DNA from: a virus
Length of the DNA stretch: 35,524 nucleotides
IMG/VR virus record: IMGVR_UViG_3300020233_000030
Coordinates: 1-35,524 of that record
Strand: one strand, 5' to 3'
Shown: in pieces, positions 682 to 7,921 of the stretch
Layout of the letters: the number at the start of each line of letters is the position of its first letter
Position numbering within the stretch: the first letter of the stretch is position 1
Notes under the pieces: generated by a model
Told to the model about the DNA's origin: nothing
Seen by the model: only the letters and a program-made list of their open reading frames with translations
Database searches by the model: none
Translations under genes and position numbers: made by a program

Positions 682-1938
682 GTGACTGACAACGTGCGCG
701 CCCTCACACCGACACCCGACATGCTCCATATCGAGATGGGTGTCTCAGCGCCCCAACGCATCGCCAGTACACTGTATGACGATTTCCTACCCGAACTGCG
801 AGGCCAACAAGCACTACGCACGTGGCGGGAAATGTCAACAAACGACGCCACCGTCGCCGCCTACCTGTTCGCCATCTCGATGCTTGTCCGTGAAGTGGAT
901 TGGAGTGTCCAACCTGGCGACGAATCCACCCAAGCGAAAACAGCGGCCGACTTCCTCACCGAACAGGTAGACGCGTTGGCGCATCCGCTGTCGGACACGG
1001 TCGGTGAAGCATTCACGTCGTTGGAGTACGGGTTTGCGTTTCACGAAATCGTGTACAAGTTGGATGCAGGTCGGATTGGTTGGGAACGGTTCGCATACCG
1101 GCCACAAGACACACTCATCCGGTGGCAGTTGGATGAACAGCTCAGGCCGACAGCGTTCGTTCAAGGCACACCACGCGGCGGCACCATCGCCATCCCCACC
1201 GACACGAAAGGTATTCTGTTTCGTATGGACACCACCACCCCATCCGGCACACCCATCCTCCGCGGTGCATACCGGTCGTGGATGTTGAAGAAGAGGGCTG
1301 AAGAGTATTTGATGATCGGCATGTCACGCATGTTGAACGGCCTACCAATGGCACGCATCCCCGCCCACATTCTCGCGGCTGGGCCCGGCAACCCGATCTA
1401 TGACGCATTCAAACGCACCGTCACCCGTGTCAAGCGTGATGAGCAGATGGGTATCTTGTTGCCGTCCGACACTGATCCGAACGGTGTTCCGATGTACACG
1501 TTCGAACTGCTATCACCGACCGGTAACCCACAGTTCGACCAAATCGTGTCCGTCATCAGAATGTTTGCCTCCGATATGACTGCAACTGTCCTGGCACAGT
1601 TCATGAATTTGGGCCGCGACGCTGTCGGATCTAGAGCACTCGCTGAGCCGCAGCAGGAACTGTTCCAAACCGCCCTGGGTGCACAGATGGACATGCTCGA
1701 AAACGTCTTCAACCGTCAAGCCGTCCGACCACTGTTCGATTTGAACCCGTCACTGTCGGGGCCGAGGCCGAAGATTGTGCACAGCGATGTGAAAGACGTC
1801 GACATGACCGGCCTAGCGGAGCTCATGTTGAAGACGTCTCAAGCCGGTGCCGTCTGGTTCACCGGTGAAGAAGACGATCCGGCGTTGGCACAGTTGAAAG
1901 ACATGGCAGGCTTCGACGCCGACACCAAGATCGAATAA
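682..1938 (+). CDS. Portal protein (DUF935 / Mu gp29-like)
   Basis: The portal forms the dodecameric ring at one head vertex through which DNA is packaged and released. The 418-residue length suits the DUF935 (Mu gp29-like) portal group. The N-terminal part (about 40-80) holds a helix-rich segment with TWREMSTNDATVAAYL, and SLEYGFAFHEIVYK (about 113-126) is typical of this group. A long helical region with RMFASDMTATVLAQF (about 290-305) fits the stem and clip. It lies between TerL and a MuF-type gene, the normal order. The GTG start lacks a Shine-Dalgarno sequence and may be leaderless. The stop TAA overlaps the MuF ATG by one base. Confidence 0.85.
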   Translation: MTDNVRALTPTPDMLHIEMGVSAPQRIASTLYDDFLPELRGQQALRTWREMSTNDATVAAYLFAISMLVREVDWSVQPGDESTQAKTAADFLTEQVDALAHPLSDTVGEAFTSLEYGFAFHEIVYKLDAGRIGWERFAYRPQDTLIRWQLDEQLRPTAFVQGTPRGGTIAIPTDTKGILFRMDTTTPSGTPILRGAYRSWMLKKRAEEYLMIGMSRMLNGLPMARIPAHILAAGPGNPIYDAFKRTVTRVKRDEQMGILLPSDTDPNGVPMYTFELLSPTGNPQFDQIVSVIRMFASDMTATVLAQFMNLGRDAVGSRALAEPQQELFQTALGAQMDMLENVFNRQAVRPLFDLNPSLSGPRPKIVHSDVKDVDMTGLAELMLKTSQAGAVWFTGEEDDPALAQLKDMAGFDADTKIE

Positions 1939-4838
1939 TGCTCGTCGTCAAGACGGCCGACCCGGACTGGCAGCTCATACACGCGGCCGCGGACAAGCTG
2001 GCACCGAAACTTCGCACCGCATTCCGGGAAGCGTTCGACACACTCGCGGCACTCCTACCCCTCAACGACCTGACCGACCTGCTCGAAGCTGAAGCGTTCA
2101 ATGAACTGTCCGCACTCATAGCCGACCTCAGGTTGCCCGATATGGCACCGTTGGTGAACCTGCTCGCTAGCGCGCAAGTCACGACTGCGACAGCTATCGG
2201 CATCCGTTTCGACGTGCCGTCGCCAGCCATCTACACACTCAACAATCCGGACATTCTCCGATGGACCACCAGACGAGTCTCCGATCTGATAGTCGGCGTC
2301 ACCCAAGAAACAAAGAACGCTGTCACCAGCATTGTGCGTCAAGGCTTCATTGACGGTATCCCGGTACGTGTCCAAGCCAGACAGATCAGGCGCGTGGTTG
2401 GGTTGACGAACCGTGACGCCGGTGCTGTGCAACGGTTCCTCACCGGACAACTCGAAGCCGGCATCAAACAAGCCAGAGCCGAGACGATGGCGCAACGAAT
2501 GACAGACCGTCTCAAACTGCGACGTGCCGACGTGATAGCACGCACCGAATCTATACGTGCATCCAACCAGGGACAGCTACAAGCCTGGCGTGACCTGATG
2601 GACGCAGGCGGACTCGACCCGACCGTCACACGTCGTGTCTGGGTCGCGACAATCGACGACCGCACATGTTTCCCTGCCGGTACGCGTATATCAACGCCGG
2701 ACGGTGACAGGCCAATAGAAGCACTGGAACCGGGCGACATAGTTGACACGCCGCAAGGTCCGATGCCTATAGCAGCGACCGTTGGAACCTGGTGCAAGGA
2801 TGAATGGGTTGCAATTGTCGACTCCACCGGTCAGTTGACGATCTCGACAGCGGATCACGAATGGTGGTCAGATGGTTGGGTCGAGGCGCAGACACTCAAG
2901 ATCGGTGACTGTCTGCAATCTGTCGAGAACAAGCCGATCTATATCGTCGGTGTTGCCAAGTTCAGTCTCGGAGATGCGGACAACATGCCAGCCGTCTGCA
3001 CGCAACTCGGCATCCCTCGCAGCGTCCTTGACAGGATCATGCCAGTAGTCGCCATCGACCTCAAGGACGATACGGTTACCAACCACGAAATCGAATGTTC
3101 GTGCCCCATATTGATGTTCCTGGATGAACCTGATGCCTTGCCGCTGCAAGGATTCTCTGACTGTAGTTTCGATGCCTGTCTCACCGCGGAAACATCTGTA
3201 GCACCGCGCCGAACAGAAACGTCGATGTCCAGCAGCGGACGGCTTGACCCTGAACTTGTCACCACAATAGCGACAATCGACAAAGACGGGCGGTCGGCGG
3301 CATATCTCAGAGCAATGCCAGATGTCACGTTTCGACGCCCAGAACGATGTGCCGCACGACCTGCAATTCCGATACAGGGTGTGAGCATGTCGGCATGCCA
3401 ACGAACATACACGGTATCGGACATTCATCGACTGAGGAACGGTGAATGTCTTGTTGCATACAGGGCAGATCTTCTCAATCAACACATCCGATTTGTCGGC
3501 GAGGTAACACTGTCGGCTACAGAACCGCCGGTATCGCAAATCGTTTCCTTTGCCAGGACGGAAAGCAACACCGCAATGTTCACAGGTGAAGCTGTCGGGA
3601 TAGATCCGGGTTGCGAGATGGTAACAAACCGTCGTGCAGAAATGGCACTTGCCGCGGGGACGAACCTTAGCGACATATTCGACGCTGCAATAGTCGCAGA
3701 CATAGCGGAGGCGTTTACCGCGTTCTACACCAGTCATATCAACGGTGGCCATCCAGTGTATGATATCACAGTCCAAGGACCGGCATGTTTCTACGCAAAT
3801 GGCGTCCTTGTCCACAACTGCGGCATCTGTGCGGCACTTGATGGGCAGACTGTCGGATTCCTGGAACCGTTCCGCTCCACCGAACAGTACGTCGATTTCA
3901 CCGATTTAGGTACAGGGTTTGTGGCAGAATCGACGAAGCCGTTGCCGGAACCTATCGTCGAACAGACACCCCCCGCACACCCGCTATGTTTACCTGGGGA
4001 TGCTCTCATATCGACCGCTGGCCGCGTCACGGGTGCCACGAAACGGATATTTGACGGGGATATGGTCACTGTCCGCATCGGCAACGGTAACAGCTTCCGC
4101 GCTACCCCGAACCATCCGATACTCACGGACAGCGGATGGGTAGCCTGCGGCGATCTTGTACCAGGCTGCAATGTAGTCAGCGGCGGCAATGTCGATAGGC
4201 GACCATCGGTGAATGTGGATGACAGCTACATGCCATCCACTATTGAAGAAGTAGCGAACACGTTCCTGCATACGGTCAGCGTGTCTGCCGGTCCAGTGCC
4301 AGTTACCGCCAAAGATTTCCACGGCGATGGGGAAGGCTCCGATGTCGCAATTGTAGGGACCGACCTGTTGTTGCGCGACGACCGGTATACCCATGTCACT
4401 GAGCCAACCAGCCATGGTCCGTTCGTTGACAGTGGTATGTGCGGCAGCGTTCGTCTCGACAGTGGCCGCAATTTTCATGCGGTGCTCAACCGTCTGGATG
4501 CTGCCGCGGGCAGCGTCATGGGCGGCGGTGACCTGGTTGGTACGCTGTGCCGTGTCCATGCGCGACCACTTCAACGTTTCAGCTTCGGACTGGCTACGGA
4601 CAGCAACGGCACGTTCGGTGAGTCTGAGTCTGATAGCGCTGCGGGAAACGCCGAGACTGTTCGCGAGTCCGTTCTCAGACTCACCGGCAAGATATCGACT
4701 GACAAGGTCGTCGCAGTCGATCGTGACCCGTTTCATGGCTACGTCTACAATCTTGAGACAACGACAGGATACTACCAGACGAACGGTGTCGTTGTACACA
4801 ACTGTCGCTGTTCCACTGCACTCGTCTTCGACGAATAA
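1938..4838 (+). CDS. MuF-type minor head protein interrupted by two inteins
   Basis: The 966-residue precursor should splice to about 310 residues, the usual MuF length. The exteins are 1938-2666 (243 aa), 3819-3986 (56 aa) and 4803-4838 (11 aa). The N-extein is helical and carries the MuF segment RRADVIARTESIRASNQGQL. The spliced product would read DDRT-CGICAALDGQ ... PPAHPL-CRCSTALVF, the conserved metal-binding signature of MuF domains. The protein helps assemble the head and portal vertex and may be co-injected. Both inteins sit exactly before a conserved Cys, sites where loss by imprecise deletion would be lethal. The ATG overlaps the portal stop. Each intein also encodes an endonuclease on the opposite strand. 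Confidence 0.9.
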   Translation: MLVVKTADPDWQLIHAAADKLAPKLRTAFREAFDTLAALLPLNDLTDLLEAEAFNELSALIADLRLPDMAPLVNLLASAQVTTATAIGIRFDVPSPAIYTLNNPDILRWTTRRVSDLIVGVTQETKNAVTSIVRQGFIDGIPVRVQARQIRRVVGLTNRDAGAVQRFLTGQLEAGIKQARAETMAQRMTDRLKLRRADVIARTESIRASNQGQLQAWRDLMDAGGLDPTVTRRVWVATIDDRTCFPAGTRISTPDGDRPIEALEPGDIVDTPQGPMPIAATVGTWCKDEWVAIVDSTGQLTISTADHEWWSDGWVEAQTLKIGDCLQSVENKPIYIVGVAKFSLGDADNMPAVCTQLGIPRSVLDRIMPVVAIDLKDDTVTNHEIECSCPILMFLDEPDALPLQGFSDCSFDACLTAETSVAPRRTETSMSSSGRLDPELVTTIATIDKDGRSAAYLRAMPDVTFRRPERCAARPAIPIQGVSMSACQRTYTVSDIHRLRNGECLVAYRADLLNQHIRFVGEVTLSATEPPVSQIVSFARTESNTAMFTGEAVGIDPGCEMVTNRRAEMALAAGTNLSDIFDAAIVADIAEAFTAFYTSHINGGHPVYDITVQGPACFYANGVLVHNCGICAALDGQTVGFLEPFRSTEQYVDFTDLGTGFVAESTKPLPEPIVEQTPPAHPLCLPGDALISTAGRVTGATKRIFDGDMVTVRIGNGNSFRATPNHPILTDSGWVACGDLVPGCNVVSGGNVDRRPSVNVDDSYMPSTIEEVANTFLHTVSVSAGPVPVTAKDFHGDGEGSDVAIVGTDLLLRDDRYTHVTEPTSHGPFVDSGMCGSVRLDSGRNFHAVLNRLDAAAGSVMGGGDLVGTLCRVHARPLQRFSFGLATDSNGTFGESESDSAAGNAETVRESVLRLTGKISTDKVVAVDRDPFHGYVYNLETTTGYYQTNGVVVHNCRCSTALVFDE
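2667..3818 (+). other. Intein 1 in the MuF protein (384 aa)
   Basis: The intein begins with Cys in block A (CFPAGTRISTPDG). Block B carries T-A-D-H at intein residues 61-64. It ends with block F (HPVYDITVQG) and block G (NGVLVHN), followed by extein Cys at 3819-3821. All residues for standard protein splicing are present: Cys1, the block B Thr and His, the penultimate His, the terminal Asn and Cys+1. Between blocks B and F lie about 270 residues with no LAGLIDADG or HNH motif in this frame. That linker is the reverse-strand image of the endonuclease at 2868-3752. Confidence 0.93.
2868..3752 (-). CDS. Vsr-like (EDxHD) homing endonuclease, five zinc knuckles, antisense in intein 1
   Basis: This protein of 294 residues (from the ATG at 3752) is encoded entirely inside intein 1 on the opposite strand. 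A longer form could start at the GTG at 3815, opposite the intein's penultimate His codon, and a shorter one at the ATG at 3737. Its N-terminal two-thirds holds five tandem knuckles of the form CxxC-x(13-19)-CxxxC or similar, for example CPVCNKTF...CSLAC and CRYCGDKF...CSARC. The C-terminal third has a Vsr/DUF559-like core: Glu in TGIETTV, Asp in RTFDFVVG, and LEVDGDYWH with Glu and His, then a GWHVVRI strand. That is the E-D-x-H pattern of the I-Bth0305I family. It should cut intein-free MuF alleles to promote homing. No clear Shine-Dalgarno sequence or promoter is seen. Confidence 0.85.
   Translation of the reverse strand: MATVDMTGVERGKRLRYVCDYCSVEYVAKVRPRGKCHFCTTVCYHLATRIYPDSFTCEHCGVAFRPGKGNDLRYRRFCSRQCYLADKSDVLIEKICPVCNKTFTVPQSMNVRYRVCSLACRHAHTLYRNCRSCGTSFWASKRDIWHCSEICRRPPVFVDCRYCGDKFRVKPSAAGHRRFCSARCYRCFRGETGIETTVRESLQRQGIRFIQEHQYGARTFDFVVGNRIVLEVDGDYWHDPVKDAARDAELRADGWHVVRISETELGNTDDIDRLVLDRLQTVTDLECLRLDPTI
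3987..4802 (+). other. Intein 2 in the MuF protein (272 aa)
   Basis: The intein starts with Cys (CLPGDALISTAGRVTGATKR) and has a canonical block B, RATPNHPILTDSGWVACGDL. Block F is HGYVYNLETTTG and block G is NGVVVHN, followed by extein Cys at 4803-4805. The catalytic residues expected for splicing are all present. The roughly 180 residues between blocks B and F show no endonuclease motif in this frame. The opposite strand encodes a nuclease that overlaps almost the whole intein. The insertion is immediately before the CRC motif near the MuF C-terminus, leaving a C-extein of only 11 residues. Confidence 0.93.
3990..4736 (-). CDS. Vsr-like (EDxHD) homing endonuclease with HTH, antisense in intein 2
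   Basis: This 248-residue protein (from the ATG at 4736) lies wholly within intein 2 on the opposite strand. An alternative GTG at 4799 would add 21 residues. An N-terminal helix-turn-helix (residues about 8-40, NGLANSLGVSRSAIRLRL) is followed by a basic, helical linker. The nuclease core comes next: NERTMAGWL, YNCDIG and AVEIFGGNWH supply Glu, Asp, Glu and His, and GWHVAVIHI follows. This core aligns with that of the nuclease in intein 1. The last 60 or so residues lie opposite intein blocks A and B and may be only tolerated read-through. The stop codon pairs with codon 2 of the intein. No strong ribosome binding site is visible. Confidence 0.82.
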   Translation of the reverse strand: MKRVTIDCDDLVSRYLAGESENGLANSLGVSRSAIRLRLTERAVAVRSQSEAETLKWSRMDTAQRTNQVTAAHDAARGSIQTVEHRMKIAATVETNAAAHTTVNERTMAGWLSDMGIPVVAQQQVGPYNCDIGAFPIAVEIFGGNWHWTGRHADRMQERVRYFFNSGWHVAVIHIHRWSPIDIAAADYIAAWYKIAAGYPSAVREYRMVRGSAEAVTVADADSDHIPVKYPFRGTRDAASGRYESIPR

Positions 4839-4860
4839 GAGTATCTGTCATCGTTGTTGT

Positions 4861-4946
4861 TGGAGGAAGGTGGAGGAATCGAACCCCTACCCGTCAAGGT
4901 ACCCGAGGGTTCGAGCCTCGTTGCCAACCATTTAGCGGCACCTTCC
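4861..4946 (-). tRNA. tRNA-Ser (anticodon CGA)
   Basis: Read on the minus strand, the 5' end GGAAGGT pairs with ACCTTCC, followed by T and an encoded CCA (complement of 4861-4863). The anticodon stem CGAGG/CCTCG encloses CTCGAAC, giving anticodon CGA. A class II variable arm (TACC...GGTA) supports serine. The T-loop is TTCGATT. Position 8 is either missing or shared with the acceptor stem. It reads UCG, a codon this phage uses very often by eye. It lies two bases downstream of the Met tRNA on the same strand. Confidence 0.8.
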
Positions 4947-4948
4947 GT

Positions 4949-5017
4949 TGCGGGGGCCGGAATCGAACCGACATTTGCGGCTTATGAGACCGCCGGGCAA
5001 CCAATGCCCCACCCCGC
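4949..5017 (-). tRNA. tRNA with CAT anticodon (Met, possibly Ile2)
   Basis: On the minus strand GCGGGG pairs with CCCCGC. The D-arm is GGGC/GCCC with an ATTGGTT loop. The anticodon stem GCGGT/GCCGC encloses CTCATAA (anticodon CAT), and the T-arm is GTCGG-TTCGATT-CCGGC. CCA is not encoded. The G1-C72 pair argues against an initiator tRNA. Elongator Met or lysidine-modified Ile cannot be told apart here. At about 69 bases it is slightly short, with a six-pair acceptor stem. Confidence 0.78.
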
Positions 5018-5023
5018 TTAGAG

Positions 5024-5067
5024 GCCACCCGGAGTCGCATGAGACCTTCGCGGTCACTCCGGGTGGC
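5024..5067. other. Perfect 12-bp inverted repeat upstream of the tRNAs
   Basis: GCCACCCGGAGT (5024-5035) is the exact reverse complement of 5056-5067. An inner GACC/GGTC stem (5043-5046 with 5052-5055) could extend the structure. No T-run follows on either strand, so a classical intrinsic terminator is not shown. It may insulate the minus-strand tRNAs from the rightward transcript or be a processing signal. Confidence 0.7.
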
Positions 5068-5087
5068 ACTATCTCCGCTCCGCTACA

Positions 5088-5096
5088 TGCTACCCT
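5088..5096 (+). promoter_or_regulatory. Candidate extended -10 promoter
   Basis: TGcTACCCT matches the TGnTAnnnT pattern seen before the genes at 310, 682 and 7979. It stands 27 bases before the TTG start at 5124 and just after a strong hairpin. It could restart rightward transcription for the sugar cassette. There is no clear -35 box. Confidence 0.35.
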
Positions 5097-5123
5097 ACCA
5101 TCAGCCCCGATAGGAGGACATCC

Positions 5124-5309
5124 TTGGCTAAGGAACGAACACCAGCCGACGACTACCGCGATGCCCACCGCGCCTACATAGAGGCTGAACAACGTCACGT
5201 CTACCTGAATGAAAAAGCGCAGACAGCGAGCAATGAAGCGCAACTATTCCACCGGCGGTTAATAGACGCACAACAACAGTTACATGACTGGATAATCGGT
5301 GGTGATTGA
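5124..5309 (+). CDS. Small helical hypothetical protein
   Basis: This 61-residue protein starts with TTG, chosen because taggagg lies about seven bases upstream. The sequence is strongly helical and charged, with many Gln, Glu and Ala residues, and looks like a short coiled coil. It overlaps the start of the PseF-PseG fusion gene by 11 bases, so the two are probably translationally coupled. No family is recognised. Confidence 0.65.
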   Translation: MAKERTPADDYRDAHRAYIEAEQRHVYLNEKAQTASNEAQLFHRRLIDAQQQLHDWIIGGD

Positions 5310-6720
5310 CACACTCGCCGTCATACCAGCACGTGGCGGCAGCACCGAACTCAAACGCAAGAACCTGTTGCCGATAGACGGCACACCCATGTTCCTCCAC
5401 TCCGCACACGCAGCTAGGGACGCAGGCTGCCAAGTCGTCATATCCACCGACGATGCCGAGATTCGTTCCACCGCGATCGTGGCAGGATTCACGGTGCATG
5501 ACCGCGGCCCAGAGTTGGCTGATGTTGTCGTCGATGAGGTTGTCAAGGCTGCAACGGAGGGTTGGGACGGGCCGATACTGTTGGTGCAACCCACCGTGCA
5601 ACCAATCACCGCCGAGATCCTCACCGACTTCATACGAAACACCTCTGAGGTGGGTTGTCTCACTGCTGACAACACGCATCAGCTATGGAGCAACGGAGGC
5701 TGGATAACACCTCGCGTCAACAGACAAGACCGCCCTCTGAGCTCGCTGGTAGCACAGGAGCTCGGTATCAGATATTGGGCAACCGTTGCCGATATTGGCA
5801 AAGCTCCAACGCCGGTGCCTATGCCGTTCTCAGTCAACGATCTGGTCGACATCGACACTGCCAGCGACTACCGCTCGATCACGATTCCGAGATGTGTCGC
5901 GTTGTGGCCGATCGCTGACCAGACACACGGTATGGGTCATCTACGTCGCTGTCTCGCCATCGCCGAACAGCTACAACACCACCACATCGAGTTTGTGATA
6001 GACGACGTCGACGACGACATGTTGGAGATACTCGTCGAACGCGGCTGGCCATTCGAAACGTTTGCCGGTATCACAGACGACCATACCCCAGACTTGTGGA
6101 TTCTGGACAGGCTCGATAACACGGACATGCCGCAGCTCGACGGCAAGGTTGTGACATTCGAAGACGAATCGGACTATCCGGACGATGTGAAAATTGATGC
6201 CCTATATGAGGATGGTGTCGACTGGTGTGTCCTGAGGCCAGAATTCACAGCCGGCAGCTACCACGTCACCGACCAGACACATTCGTTGAAACTGTTAGTC
6301 ATGTTTGGCGGCACCGACCCCAGCCGGTTAGGTGCACGAATCTCGGAACTGTTTCCACACCACCAGCTTGAATGGATACAAGCTGGCGATGACAAGCCGG
6401 TAGCCGAACTGATGCACCAAGCCGACATTCTGATCACGTCGGCGGGTAGGACAGTGTTCGAAGCCGCCGCGGTCGGCATCCCTACCATCGTCCTGGCACA
6501 GAACCTGCGGGAGACGACGCATACGCATCTCGGGTATCGGCACGGCAACATCTATCTCGGGCTCGGCAAGCTTGTCACAGACCGTCAGATCCAAACCACC
6601 GTCGCGACACTCGAAGCCGACACCGGGTTGCGGCATGATTTGTCTGTACTCGGCAGACCAGACGGGTTAGGCTTACAGCGTATAGTTCATCGTATCGAGG
6701 CGCTACTGGGAGGTCTCTGA
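5299..6720 (+). CDS. PseF-PseG fusion: CMP-nonulosonate synthetase plus UDP-sugar hydrolase
   Basis: Residues about 1-195 are a cytidylyltransferase of the PseF/NeuA type, with IPARGGSTELKRKNL at the CTP site, and activate a nine-carbon sugar acid with CMP. Residues about 200-473 resemble PseG, which removes UDP from the 2,4-diacetamido sugar precursor. GMGHLRRCLAIAEQL carries the His expected to be catalytic (His17 in Campylobacter PseG), and LLVMFGGTDPSRLG and SAGRTVFEAAAVGIPTIVL form the nucleotide-binding C-lobe. In most bacteria these are separate genes. The adjacent PseI-like gene at 6914 provides the step between them. The start is GTG at 5299 or 5302. Legionaminic pathways use a different (NeuC-like) hydrolase, so a pseudaminic-type product is favoured. 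Confidence 0.82.
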   Translation: MVIDTLAVIPARGGSTELKRKNLLPIDGTPMFLHSAHAARDAGCQVVISTDDAEIRSTAIVAGFTVHDRGPELADVVVDEVVKAATEGWDGPILLVQPTVQPITAEILTDFIRNTSEVGCLTADNTHQLWSNGGWITPRVNRQDRPLSSLVAQELGIRYWATVADIGKAPTPVPMPFSVNDLVDIDTASDYRSITIPRCVALWPIADQTHGMGHLRRCLAIAEQLQHHHIEFVIDDVDDDMLEILVERGWPFETFAGITDDHTPDLWILDRLDNTDMPQLDGKVVTFEDESDYPDDVKIDALYEDGVDWCVLRPEFTAGSYHVTDQTHSLKLLVMFGGTDPSRLGARISELFPHHQLEWIQAGDDKPVAELMHQADILITSAGRTVFEAAAVGIPTIVLAQNLRETTHTHLGYRHGNIYLGLGKLVTDRQIQTTVATLEADTGLRHDLSVLGRPDGLGLQRIVHRIEALLGGL

Positions 6721-6917
6721 TGAATCGGACAGAACAACTGTATGCCGTACTCGAATCACGCTACGAGGCACACATCGAACATGTCGACGACACGTTCGTC
6801 GCGACTGTTTGGTTGGTGACGAAGACGGACCGTAGCAGGTTGGCGACGTTCATCGACGTCGATGAACGGTCTGCTAGGGACGCAGCGTACATGTTTCTGA
6901 TGGAGCGGCCACGGTGA
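6720..6917 (+). CDS. Small hypothetical protein in the sugar cassette
   Basis: This 65-residue protein is joined to both neighbours by four-base-type overlaps: ATG at 6720 overlaps the stop of the fusion gene, and its stop overlaps the GTG of the synthase gene. The middle looks like alternating beta strands (FVATVWLVTKTD). It has no membrane segment and no recognised domain. The context suggests an accessory role in the nonulosonate pathway, but the sequence gives no direct support for that. Confidence 0.6.
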   Translation: MNRTEQLYAVLESRYEAHIEHVDDTFVATVWLVTKTDRSRLATFIDVDERSARDAAYMFLMERPR

Positions 6918-7921
6918 GGCGTCTGGTTGCTGAGATAGGTTCAGCCAACGGCGACCTCCAATACGCACTCGACTGTGTGGATGCGTTCGCAGACGCTGGC
7001 GTGTCGATGATCAAGGGCCAGTTGTATACGGCTGACACGTTGACGTCGAAGACTGCGAAACCGTATGGGAAAGGCATCGTCGAGCCTGCCACCCAGCATG
7101 AAGCATTCTCCAAGACGCTAGACATCGCTGATTGGGCTGTGGTGCAAGACCGATGTGATCATCGTGGCATCAAGTTCTTCGCATCAGTGTTCAATGTGCA
7201 AGCTGTCGACACCGGTGTCGAGCAGCGTTGGTCTGCGTTCAAAATTGCATCGGGTGACATCACATACCGTATGCTGATTGAACAGGTAGCTGAGGCGTGT
7301 GAAGCGTCTGGTGCGTCGATGATTCTGTCCACAGGCGGTTCTACCCTGTCCGAGATTGAACGGGCCTACAACTGGATTCGTGATATCACTAAGAATGTCT
7401 ATGTGATACTGCTCGTCTGCACCCTGTCATACCCAACCAAGATCGAGGACGCACACGTCGACCGCATCACCACATTCCAGAACCTCGGTTACAATGTTGG
7501 CTATTCGGACCACACACGTGGCATCGCGGCAGCCGACTACGCATACCGGCTCGGTGCCACGATGGTTGAGAAACATGTCACGTTGACACCTGGCGCTGGT
7601 GGGGATCACGACTTTGCCATCACCCCTGCCGATGTGAAACAGTTGATGGCTGGTGAAGTGACTGGAGAATGGGACTGTGTAGCTGCTGGCGATTCGGAGA
7701 TCCGGATACACACCTGCGAGCTCGACGCTCGTATCGGTGCACGTAGGTCGCTGCACGCTGCTGTCGACATTGTTGAAGGTGACACAATCAGGCCGTGGCA
7801 TATCAGGACTGTGCGGCCAGGCGGCGGTATTGAACCGTACCAACTCGAACAGGTTGATGGCAGTCGGACAACATGCCATGTCGCGGCGGGTACGATGCTT
7901 GACTGGTCGATGCTCACCTGA
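6914..7921 (+). CDS. Nonulosonic acid synthase (PseI/NeuB-like)
   Basis: This 335-residue enzyme condenses a six-carbon amino sugar with phosphoenolpyruvate to make a sialic-acid-like sugar. The TIM-barrel motifs of NeuB/PseI are clear: GVSMIKGQLY (substrate Lys), STGGSTLSEIERA, VCTLSYPTKIEDAHVD, VGYSDHTRGIAAADYA, LGATMVEKHVTL and GGDHDFAITP. A C-terminal antifreeze-like SAF domain (about 275-335, RRSLHAAVDIVEGDTI) is also present, so the enzyme is full length. The GTG at 6914 overlaps the preceding stop. With the PseF-PseG fusion it covers the last three steps to the CMP-sugar; the earlier steps must come from the host. Confidence 0.88.
   Translation: MRRLVAEIGSANGDLQYALDCVDAFADAGVSMIKGQLYTADTLTSKTAKPYGKGIVEPATQHEAFSKTLDIADWAVVQDRCDHRGIKFFASVFNVQAVDTGVEQRWSAFKIASGDITYRMLIEQVAEACEASGASMILSTGGSTLSEIERAYNWIRDITKNVYVILLVCTLSYPTKIEDAHVDRITTFQNLGYNVGYSDHTRGIAAADYAYRLGATMVEKHVTLTPGAGGDHDFAITPADVKQLMAGEVTGEWDCVAAGDSEIRIHTCELDARIGARRSLHAAVDIVEGDTIRPWHIRTVRPGGGIEPYQLEQVDGSRTTCHVAAGTMLDWSMLT

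Follow-up and report, generated by a model that had tools for sequence, protein, structure and literature searches.

The viral record IMGVR_UViG_3300020233_000030 of IMG/VR, a stretch of 35,524 bases (hereafter the window), carries a MuF-like head morphogenesis gene on the plus strand (1938-4838, 966 amino acids) that contains two in-frame inteins, and within each intein the complementary strand holds a second open reading frame (ORF) for a predicted homing endonuclease. These elements are very probably mobile inteins in which protein splicing is encoded on one strand and the homing nuclease on the other. Such an arrangement would break with the working definition, in which a mobile intein is a single polypeptide that has a splicing and a homing part, and would explain both phage inteins that resemble mini-inteins with odd linkers and the homing genes missing from annotation. 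If it is true, constraint runs both ways: the nuclease gene has to leave the sense chain open and is bound by it, and the sense chain is bound by the nuclease gene in return. The elements would then offer a natural system for two genes sharing one stretch of DNA, in which a substitution that is silent on one strand can kill the product of the other, making splicing and homing experimentally separable.

Splicing domains and nucleases on opposite strands

The exteins of the MuF-like gene occupy 1938-2666, 3819-3986 and 4803-4838 (plus strand). The sense ORF runs unbroken through both inteins, which sets it apart from a fractured gene with split intein halves. Intein 1 (2667-3818, plus strand, 384 amino acids) lies at MuF site 1, between T and C, and intein 2 (3987-4802, plus strand, 272 amino acids) at MuF site 2, between HPx and C. 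The junctions can be read in the sequence: Cys1 at 2667-2669, a terminal VHN ending at 3818 and Cys+1 at 3819 for intein 1, and Cys1 at 3987-3989, VHN ending at 4802 and Cys+1 at 4803 for intein 2. The whole sense protein passes the Pfam Intein_splicing cutoff (42.8 bits vs 35.8), intein 1 passes that of Hint_2 (35.9 bits vs 28.4), and, for intein 2, C1, T40, H43 (the TxxH of block B) and N272 are invariant across 22 aligned inteins. The AlphaFold2 model of intein 2 is confident only at residues ~1-66 and 236-272, the two halves of the HINT domain, where the predicted local distance difference test (pLDDT) is about 90; linker residues 129-232 mostly score below 50 and are predicted to be disordered. 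Foldseek matches to this model are solved inteins, the Mtu RecA intein first. The HINT fold is thus assigned from a predicted structure for intein 2 and solely from the Pfam Hint_2 match for intein 1. Pfam matched no endonuclease family in the sense frame of 1938-4838. With the nuclease on the minus strand, the sense linker of intein 2 disordered and the sense frame devoid of such a match, neither element is therefore a canonical endonuclease-bearing intein.

Could the nuclease be real and the intein non-splicing, its extra chain being tolerated as a loop of MuF? This has been proposed for ShiLan, an in-frame and apparently non-splicing insertion with a hidden nuclease (PMC11855218). However, the ShiLan elements are without splicing motifs, whereas those of the window have full HINT motifs, the invariant C1, T, H and N of the 22 inteins, the Intein_splicing match and a predicted intein fold, and a non-splicing loop is very improbable here.

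On the minus strand, two ORFs (2868-3815 and 3990-4799) share the codon boundaries of the sense frame. The first contains the HEN1 nuclease (2868-3752, minus strand), with start ATG 3752 (alternative 3737) and stop 2868-2870, in which several Cys-pair zinc-ribbon motifs precede a DUF559/EDxHD domain. The second contains the HEN2 nuclease (3990-4736, minus strand), with start ATG 4736 and a stop (3990-3992) that lies opposite intein codon 2; an N-terminal helix-turn-helix (HTH) is followed by a Vsr/EDxHD catalytic domain. These starts are the likely ones because the ORF parts upstream of them only complement blocks F and G. HEN1 exceeds the Pfam DUF559 cutoff (29.6 vs 20.6 bits, 6.5e-7) and matches PDB 3r3p, the catalytic domain of I-Bth0305I, at 9e-6; its residues E195, D221, E231, D233, H238 and D247 are invariant with four viral relatives. 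It is a putative member of the EDxHD/Vsr-like homing endonuclease family. HEN2 as a single sequence gave only a weak match (MTES_1575, 2.4e-3), but a HEN2 family profile finds 3r3p at 4e-5. Its AlphaFold2 model, built from an alignment with 22 viral homologs, has a mean pLDDT of 87.2, and 3r3p is its top Foldseek match (5.5e-4). VIA-align Z scores for this model are 10.5 and 9.9 with Vsr, 9.2 with 3r3p and 9.1 with 3hrl. E105, D131 and E140 are invariant or near-invariant across 23 aligned homologs, and the catalytic H is present in the window copy and missing from some relatives. The model points to a Vsr-type PD-(D/E)xK fold, like that of I-Bth0305I. In the models, confidence is thus high for a nuclease on one strand and for a splicing domain on the other, whose linker has no defined form.

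An earlier note on this DNA had described complete splicing blocks in both inteins, sense linkers without an endonuclease and antisense genes of Vsr or EDxHD type whose codons pair one-to-one with those of the sense gene. Each of these descriptions agrees with the junctions, matches, models and codon boundaries given above. The note had also proposed searching the antisense proteins against profile libraries, with the lack of any nuclease match counting against it; the searches returned nuclease matches.

Codon register and selection on the two frames

Where codon boundaries coincide on the two strands, TTA, CTA and TCA are the only sense codons that place a stop on the antisense strand, and no amino acid depends on these three alone. 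The other two antisense registers contain 5 and 6 dipeptides that always force a stop, and both HEN1 and HEN2 include such dipeptides. Hence the need for codon register, the one arrangement in which any protein at all can be encoded with no stop forced upon the other strand. This computed rule should hold for antisense genes within translated DNA in general, codon register alone leaving every protein possible.

When expected antisense stops were calculated from the codon usage of each locus, 1-24 were predicted per element in 36 elements and no internal stop was found. Each window linker should contain ~6 and neither has an internal one, the single stop counted per window element being the stop codon of the nuclease itself. 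The antisense ORFs might nevertheless be shadows of high guanine plus cytosine (GC) content and of conservation on the sense strand. Antisense frames in codon register are often open at high GC, and GC-rich elements are not significant singly: the probability of a stop-free frame (P0) is 0.08-0.30 for the Gordonia elements alone. Low-GC members (0.38-0.45), however, are just as open, single elements reaching P0 of 1e-12 to 3e-14. Conservation was examined by holding one protein fixed, recoding the DNA synonymously and comparing the similarity of the other protein with this null. HEN similarity exceeded the sense-fixed null at z 5-12 for HEN2 pairs and 15-22 for HEN1 pairs, the values for HEN1 of the window being 15-20. 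Together with the confidently modeled nuclease fold and the Pfam and PDB matches, this openness and conservation refute the shadow explanation, which can practically be dismissed.

The reciprocal comparison gave a much smaller signal, with sense-linker similarity lying 0-7.5 standard deviations above the HEN-fixed null in divergent pairs and about 0 for HEN1. The close pairs L003-L010 and L003-L118 were left out, as near-identity alone gives a high z in both frames. The large excess for HEN and the small excess for the sense frame indicate that the linker is therefore primarily a nuclease gene with the sense chain carried along; in HEN2 elements, the sense chain is under at most weak constraint of its own.

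Distribution, occupancy and alternative alleles

The two-strand arrangement is widespread, with more than 100 loci, many of them in sequenced phages annotated merely as "head protein". A tblastn search with HEN2 found 127 phage records, and the genes that cover the matches are nearly always annotated as head protein, minor capsid protein or hypothetical protein. In the ten phage loci that were read closely (10/10), the nuclease is antisense, in codon register and within a MuF intein. None of the annotated phage records read lists the antisense nuclease as a gene, including that of Snoke, in which the intein itself is annotated. First scans of viral contigs gave 23 distinct HEN2 loci, all of them antisense inside an intein, and the same holds for 78 of 79 further HEN2 loci from a later, larger scan (six of the 78 from bacterial genome assemblies, and three extending past a contig edge). 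The HEN1 arrangement is repeated in L012, L014/L015 and L016, with the same site 1 and architecture in L012, L014 and L016. The phrog_15127 "head protein" profile spans the intein linker of 1938-4838, the shadow of the nuclease having seemingly been modeled as a capsid protein.

One locus serves as a natural control for the open opposite frame. In L150, a free-standing HEN2-type gene (3836-4702, plus strand) lies just downstream of a MuF gene (4646-5191, minus strand) with an empty site 2, and the frame opposite this nuclease is closed, its longest open run being 110 codons. It is plausible that the elements originated when a free-standing nuclease gene entered a mini-intein, but the L150 copy could equally well be an escapee from an intein. 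Another candidate exception to the architecture, L121 (GE_vB_HIL), was set aside as an unverified record with a broken frame.

HEN1-like nucleases were also seen in antisense to DNA methylase genes, either within the gene or at its end, in L011 (Mycobacterium phage Camster gp54-gp57), L044, L047 and L052. The annotation of Camster gp55 appears to be a wrong-strand ORF, and the upstream methylase pieces of L044, L047 and L052 have a terminal tail in common, LTxxExxYVxxELRK. No splicing element was found with these methylase-gene nucleases; group I introns were sought and gave no Rfam match. In L040 (GC 0.30), the frame opposite a HEN1-like gene (3857-4642) is open for 279 codons despite the very low GC and is apparently fused to a methylase start; no intein was seen there.

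A search for relatives of the MuF exteins of the window found no close one, and empty-site alleles were therefore taken from other phages. Snoke has an intein at site 2 only, fEg-Eco06 at site 1 only and fEg-Eco19 at neither, their spliced extein DNA being about 89-94% identical and the junctions exact. Among 607 related MuF records, most places among the matches listed match the spliced protein in one piece, indicating that the insert is patchy. In the Gordonia phages Fosterous, Sedona and Nordenberg, the extein DNA is 96-98% identical, with inteins that are 53-57% alike at one and the same site. The MuF loci of Nordenberg (L119, 3062-6169) and of the Gordonia phage SchottB (L120) have their intein at site 2, and in both the antisense nuclease is in the same register and LAGLIDADG-like, replacing EDxHD. 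Pfam named no family for the Nordenberg antisense protein, which matches the endonuclease family phrog_5046 at 2e-15 and has a short I-MsoI-like motif. The antisense design is thus found with no fewer than two nucleases that are unrelated to each other. In a set of 78 elements, HEN distances track those of the splicing domains (r 0.64) better than those of the exteins (0.43), which suggests that nuclease and splicing domain travel together; identity in this set is 40-45% for the inteins and 21% for the exteins.

The earlier note had held that its reading would fall if close relatives had many antisense stops or if homologous inteins carried a same-strand endonuclease, and had suggested looking for purifying selection in both frames. 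The antisense frame is open in 23/23 and 78/79 loci, and one of the elements parsed later, L162 (discussed below), is an exception. No same-strand endonuclease was seen in homologous MuF inteins, the differing allele examined, that of Nordenberg and SchottB, being antisense too, and constraint was found on both frames, strong for HEN and at most weak for the sense chain.

The antisense nuclease might instead act in trans, as a regulator or by excluding intein-less phages, and have no part in intein homing. Phage homing endonucleases can exclude rival phages, and the L150 copy lies outside an intein, both of which would suit such a role. Against it, 78 of 79 copies lie within inteins, and genes that are nearly identical differ in their exact site occupancy, as homing predicts. 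A role in trans in place of homing is unlikely, although the two are not mutually exclusive.

Expression, proposed mechanism and known systems

A candidate antisense -10 box, TATCAT (3760-3765, minus strand), lies 7 nucleotides before ATG 3752 of HEN1. It is a weak candidate based on a consensus match and would give a leaderless messenger RNA; the promoter score has P = 0.018 against synonymous recodings. For HEN2, a suggestive candidate, TAGTAT (4769-4774, minus strand), lies 32 nucleotides before ATG 4736, and the score in the window has P = 0.068, with relatives scoring more strongly. Many relatives have a -10 box in the stretch complementary to blocks F-G, for example TGCTATAAT in Snoke and 1N2-2 or TTGACT-16-TATAAT in fEg-Eco06, followed by GAGGT or a similar site and then ATG, all within the intein. 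Over 36 non-independent elements, antisense sigma70-like promoter scores exceed the synonymous null (mean z 1.8, Stouffer z 10.8), and the antisense start is ATG in 35 of the 36, starts having been partly chosen so.

Read in the sense direction, the HINT domain would excise itself from MuF and ligate the exteins, leaving the long linker as a by-product chain. The minus-strand reading of the same linker would yield an EDxHD (I-Bth0305I/Vsr-like) homing endonuclease that brings a DNA-binding module of its own, either HTH or zinc ribbons, from a gene that may be transcribed, in many relatives, from its own promoter-like box, with ribosome site and ATG within the intein. During mixed infection, the nuclease would cut an intein-free MuF gene at the insertion site; this gene would be repaired from the copy that bears the intein, and the element would spread in this way.

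Several points weigh against this account. Splicing of MuF, antisense expression, cutting of the empty site and homing are all steps that we infer. In the window, promoter signals are weak and neither start is preceded by a clear Shine-Dalgarno sequence, and the ATG starts of the antisense genes were picked partly by eye. The conserved GGxWH motif is absent from some members, so that not every nuclease need be active. The elements are related by descent, so that their P values were not multiplied. Finally, one of 92 later-parsed elements, the HEN2-type intein of L162, has an antisense stop while its sense ORF is open, and its nuclease is possibly decaying. The weak window promoters and the L162 stop would also fit an antisense gene that was once functional and is now mostly a silent passenger, mobility being due to ordinary phage recombination. 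Yet E105, D131 and E140 are kept in 23 diverse copies, and retention of catalytic residues across divergent copies calls for ongoing function, which makes the silent passenger improbable. Beyond the window, inteins with a nuclease antisense in codon register probably form a class found in phages from several bacterial phyla, an internal antisense promoter being frequent; the class would have arisen on more than one occasion, with EDxHD and LAGLIDADG-like nucleases that are unrelated, and its two products would be genetically locked together.

How do these elements compare with known systems? Canonical mobile inteins with LAGLIDADG or HNH nucleases likewise have a HINT domain, nuclease sequence between blocks B and F and a precise in-frame insertion at conserved motifs, but here the nuclease is a separate gene of the complementary strand, with its own start and outside the spliced-out chain. 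EDxHD homing endonucleases, exemplified by I-Bth0305I (PDB 3r3p), share the catalytic fold and key residues; those known are intron-borne, or free-standing between the halves of split inteins in fractured genes, whereas the inteins of the window are not split and enclose their nuclease in antisense. To our knowledge, few fully antisense overlaps in codon register with recognizable products on both strands are as long and as widely conserved as these, and searches of the open-license literature found no description of an intein that contains an antisense endonuclease. I-DsqI is encoded by an antisense homing gene in a nuclear group I intron, is expressed and cuts a target lacking the intron (PMC9548176). 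There too, the strand opposite a self-splicing element carries the homing gene, but with RNA splicing the opposite strand need not code, whereas here both strands must stay open. The nearest case in the literature is the out-of-frame HNH of the ShiLan insertion in phage methylases, where the insertion is in frame and conceals a nuclease in a different frame (PMC11855218); this nuclease is on the same strand, of the HNH type and without a splicing domain, and the window elements differ on all three counts.

The identity of the host gene rests on its N-extein, which matches the phrog_3517 head morphogenesis profile at 7e-30 and Phage_Mu_F at 1.2e-5, under the Pfam cutoff. A Mu-type portal gene (Portal_Mu, 682-1938) lies directly upstream, and back-to-back genes for tRNA-Ser(cga) and tRNA-Met(cat) (4861-5018, minus strand) lie directly downstream on the opposite strand. 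Further along the window, a cytidylyltransferase gene whose C-terminal half is glycosyltransferase-like (5299-6720, plus strand) and a NeuB-family synthase gene with a SAF domain (6914-7921, plus strand) are possible nonulosonic (sialic-type) acid genes in a phage.

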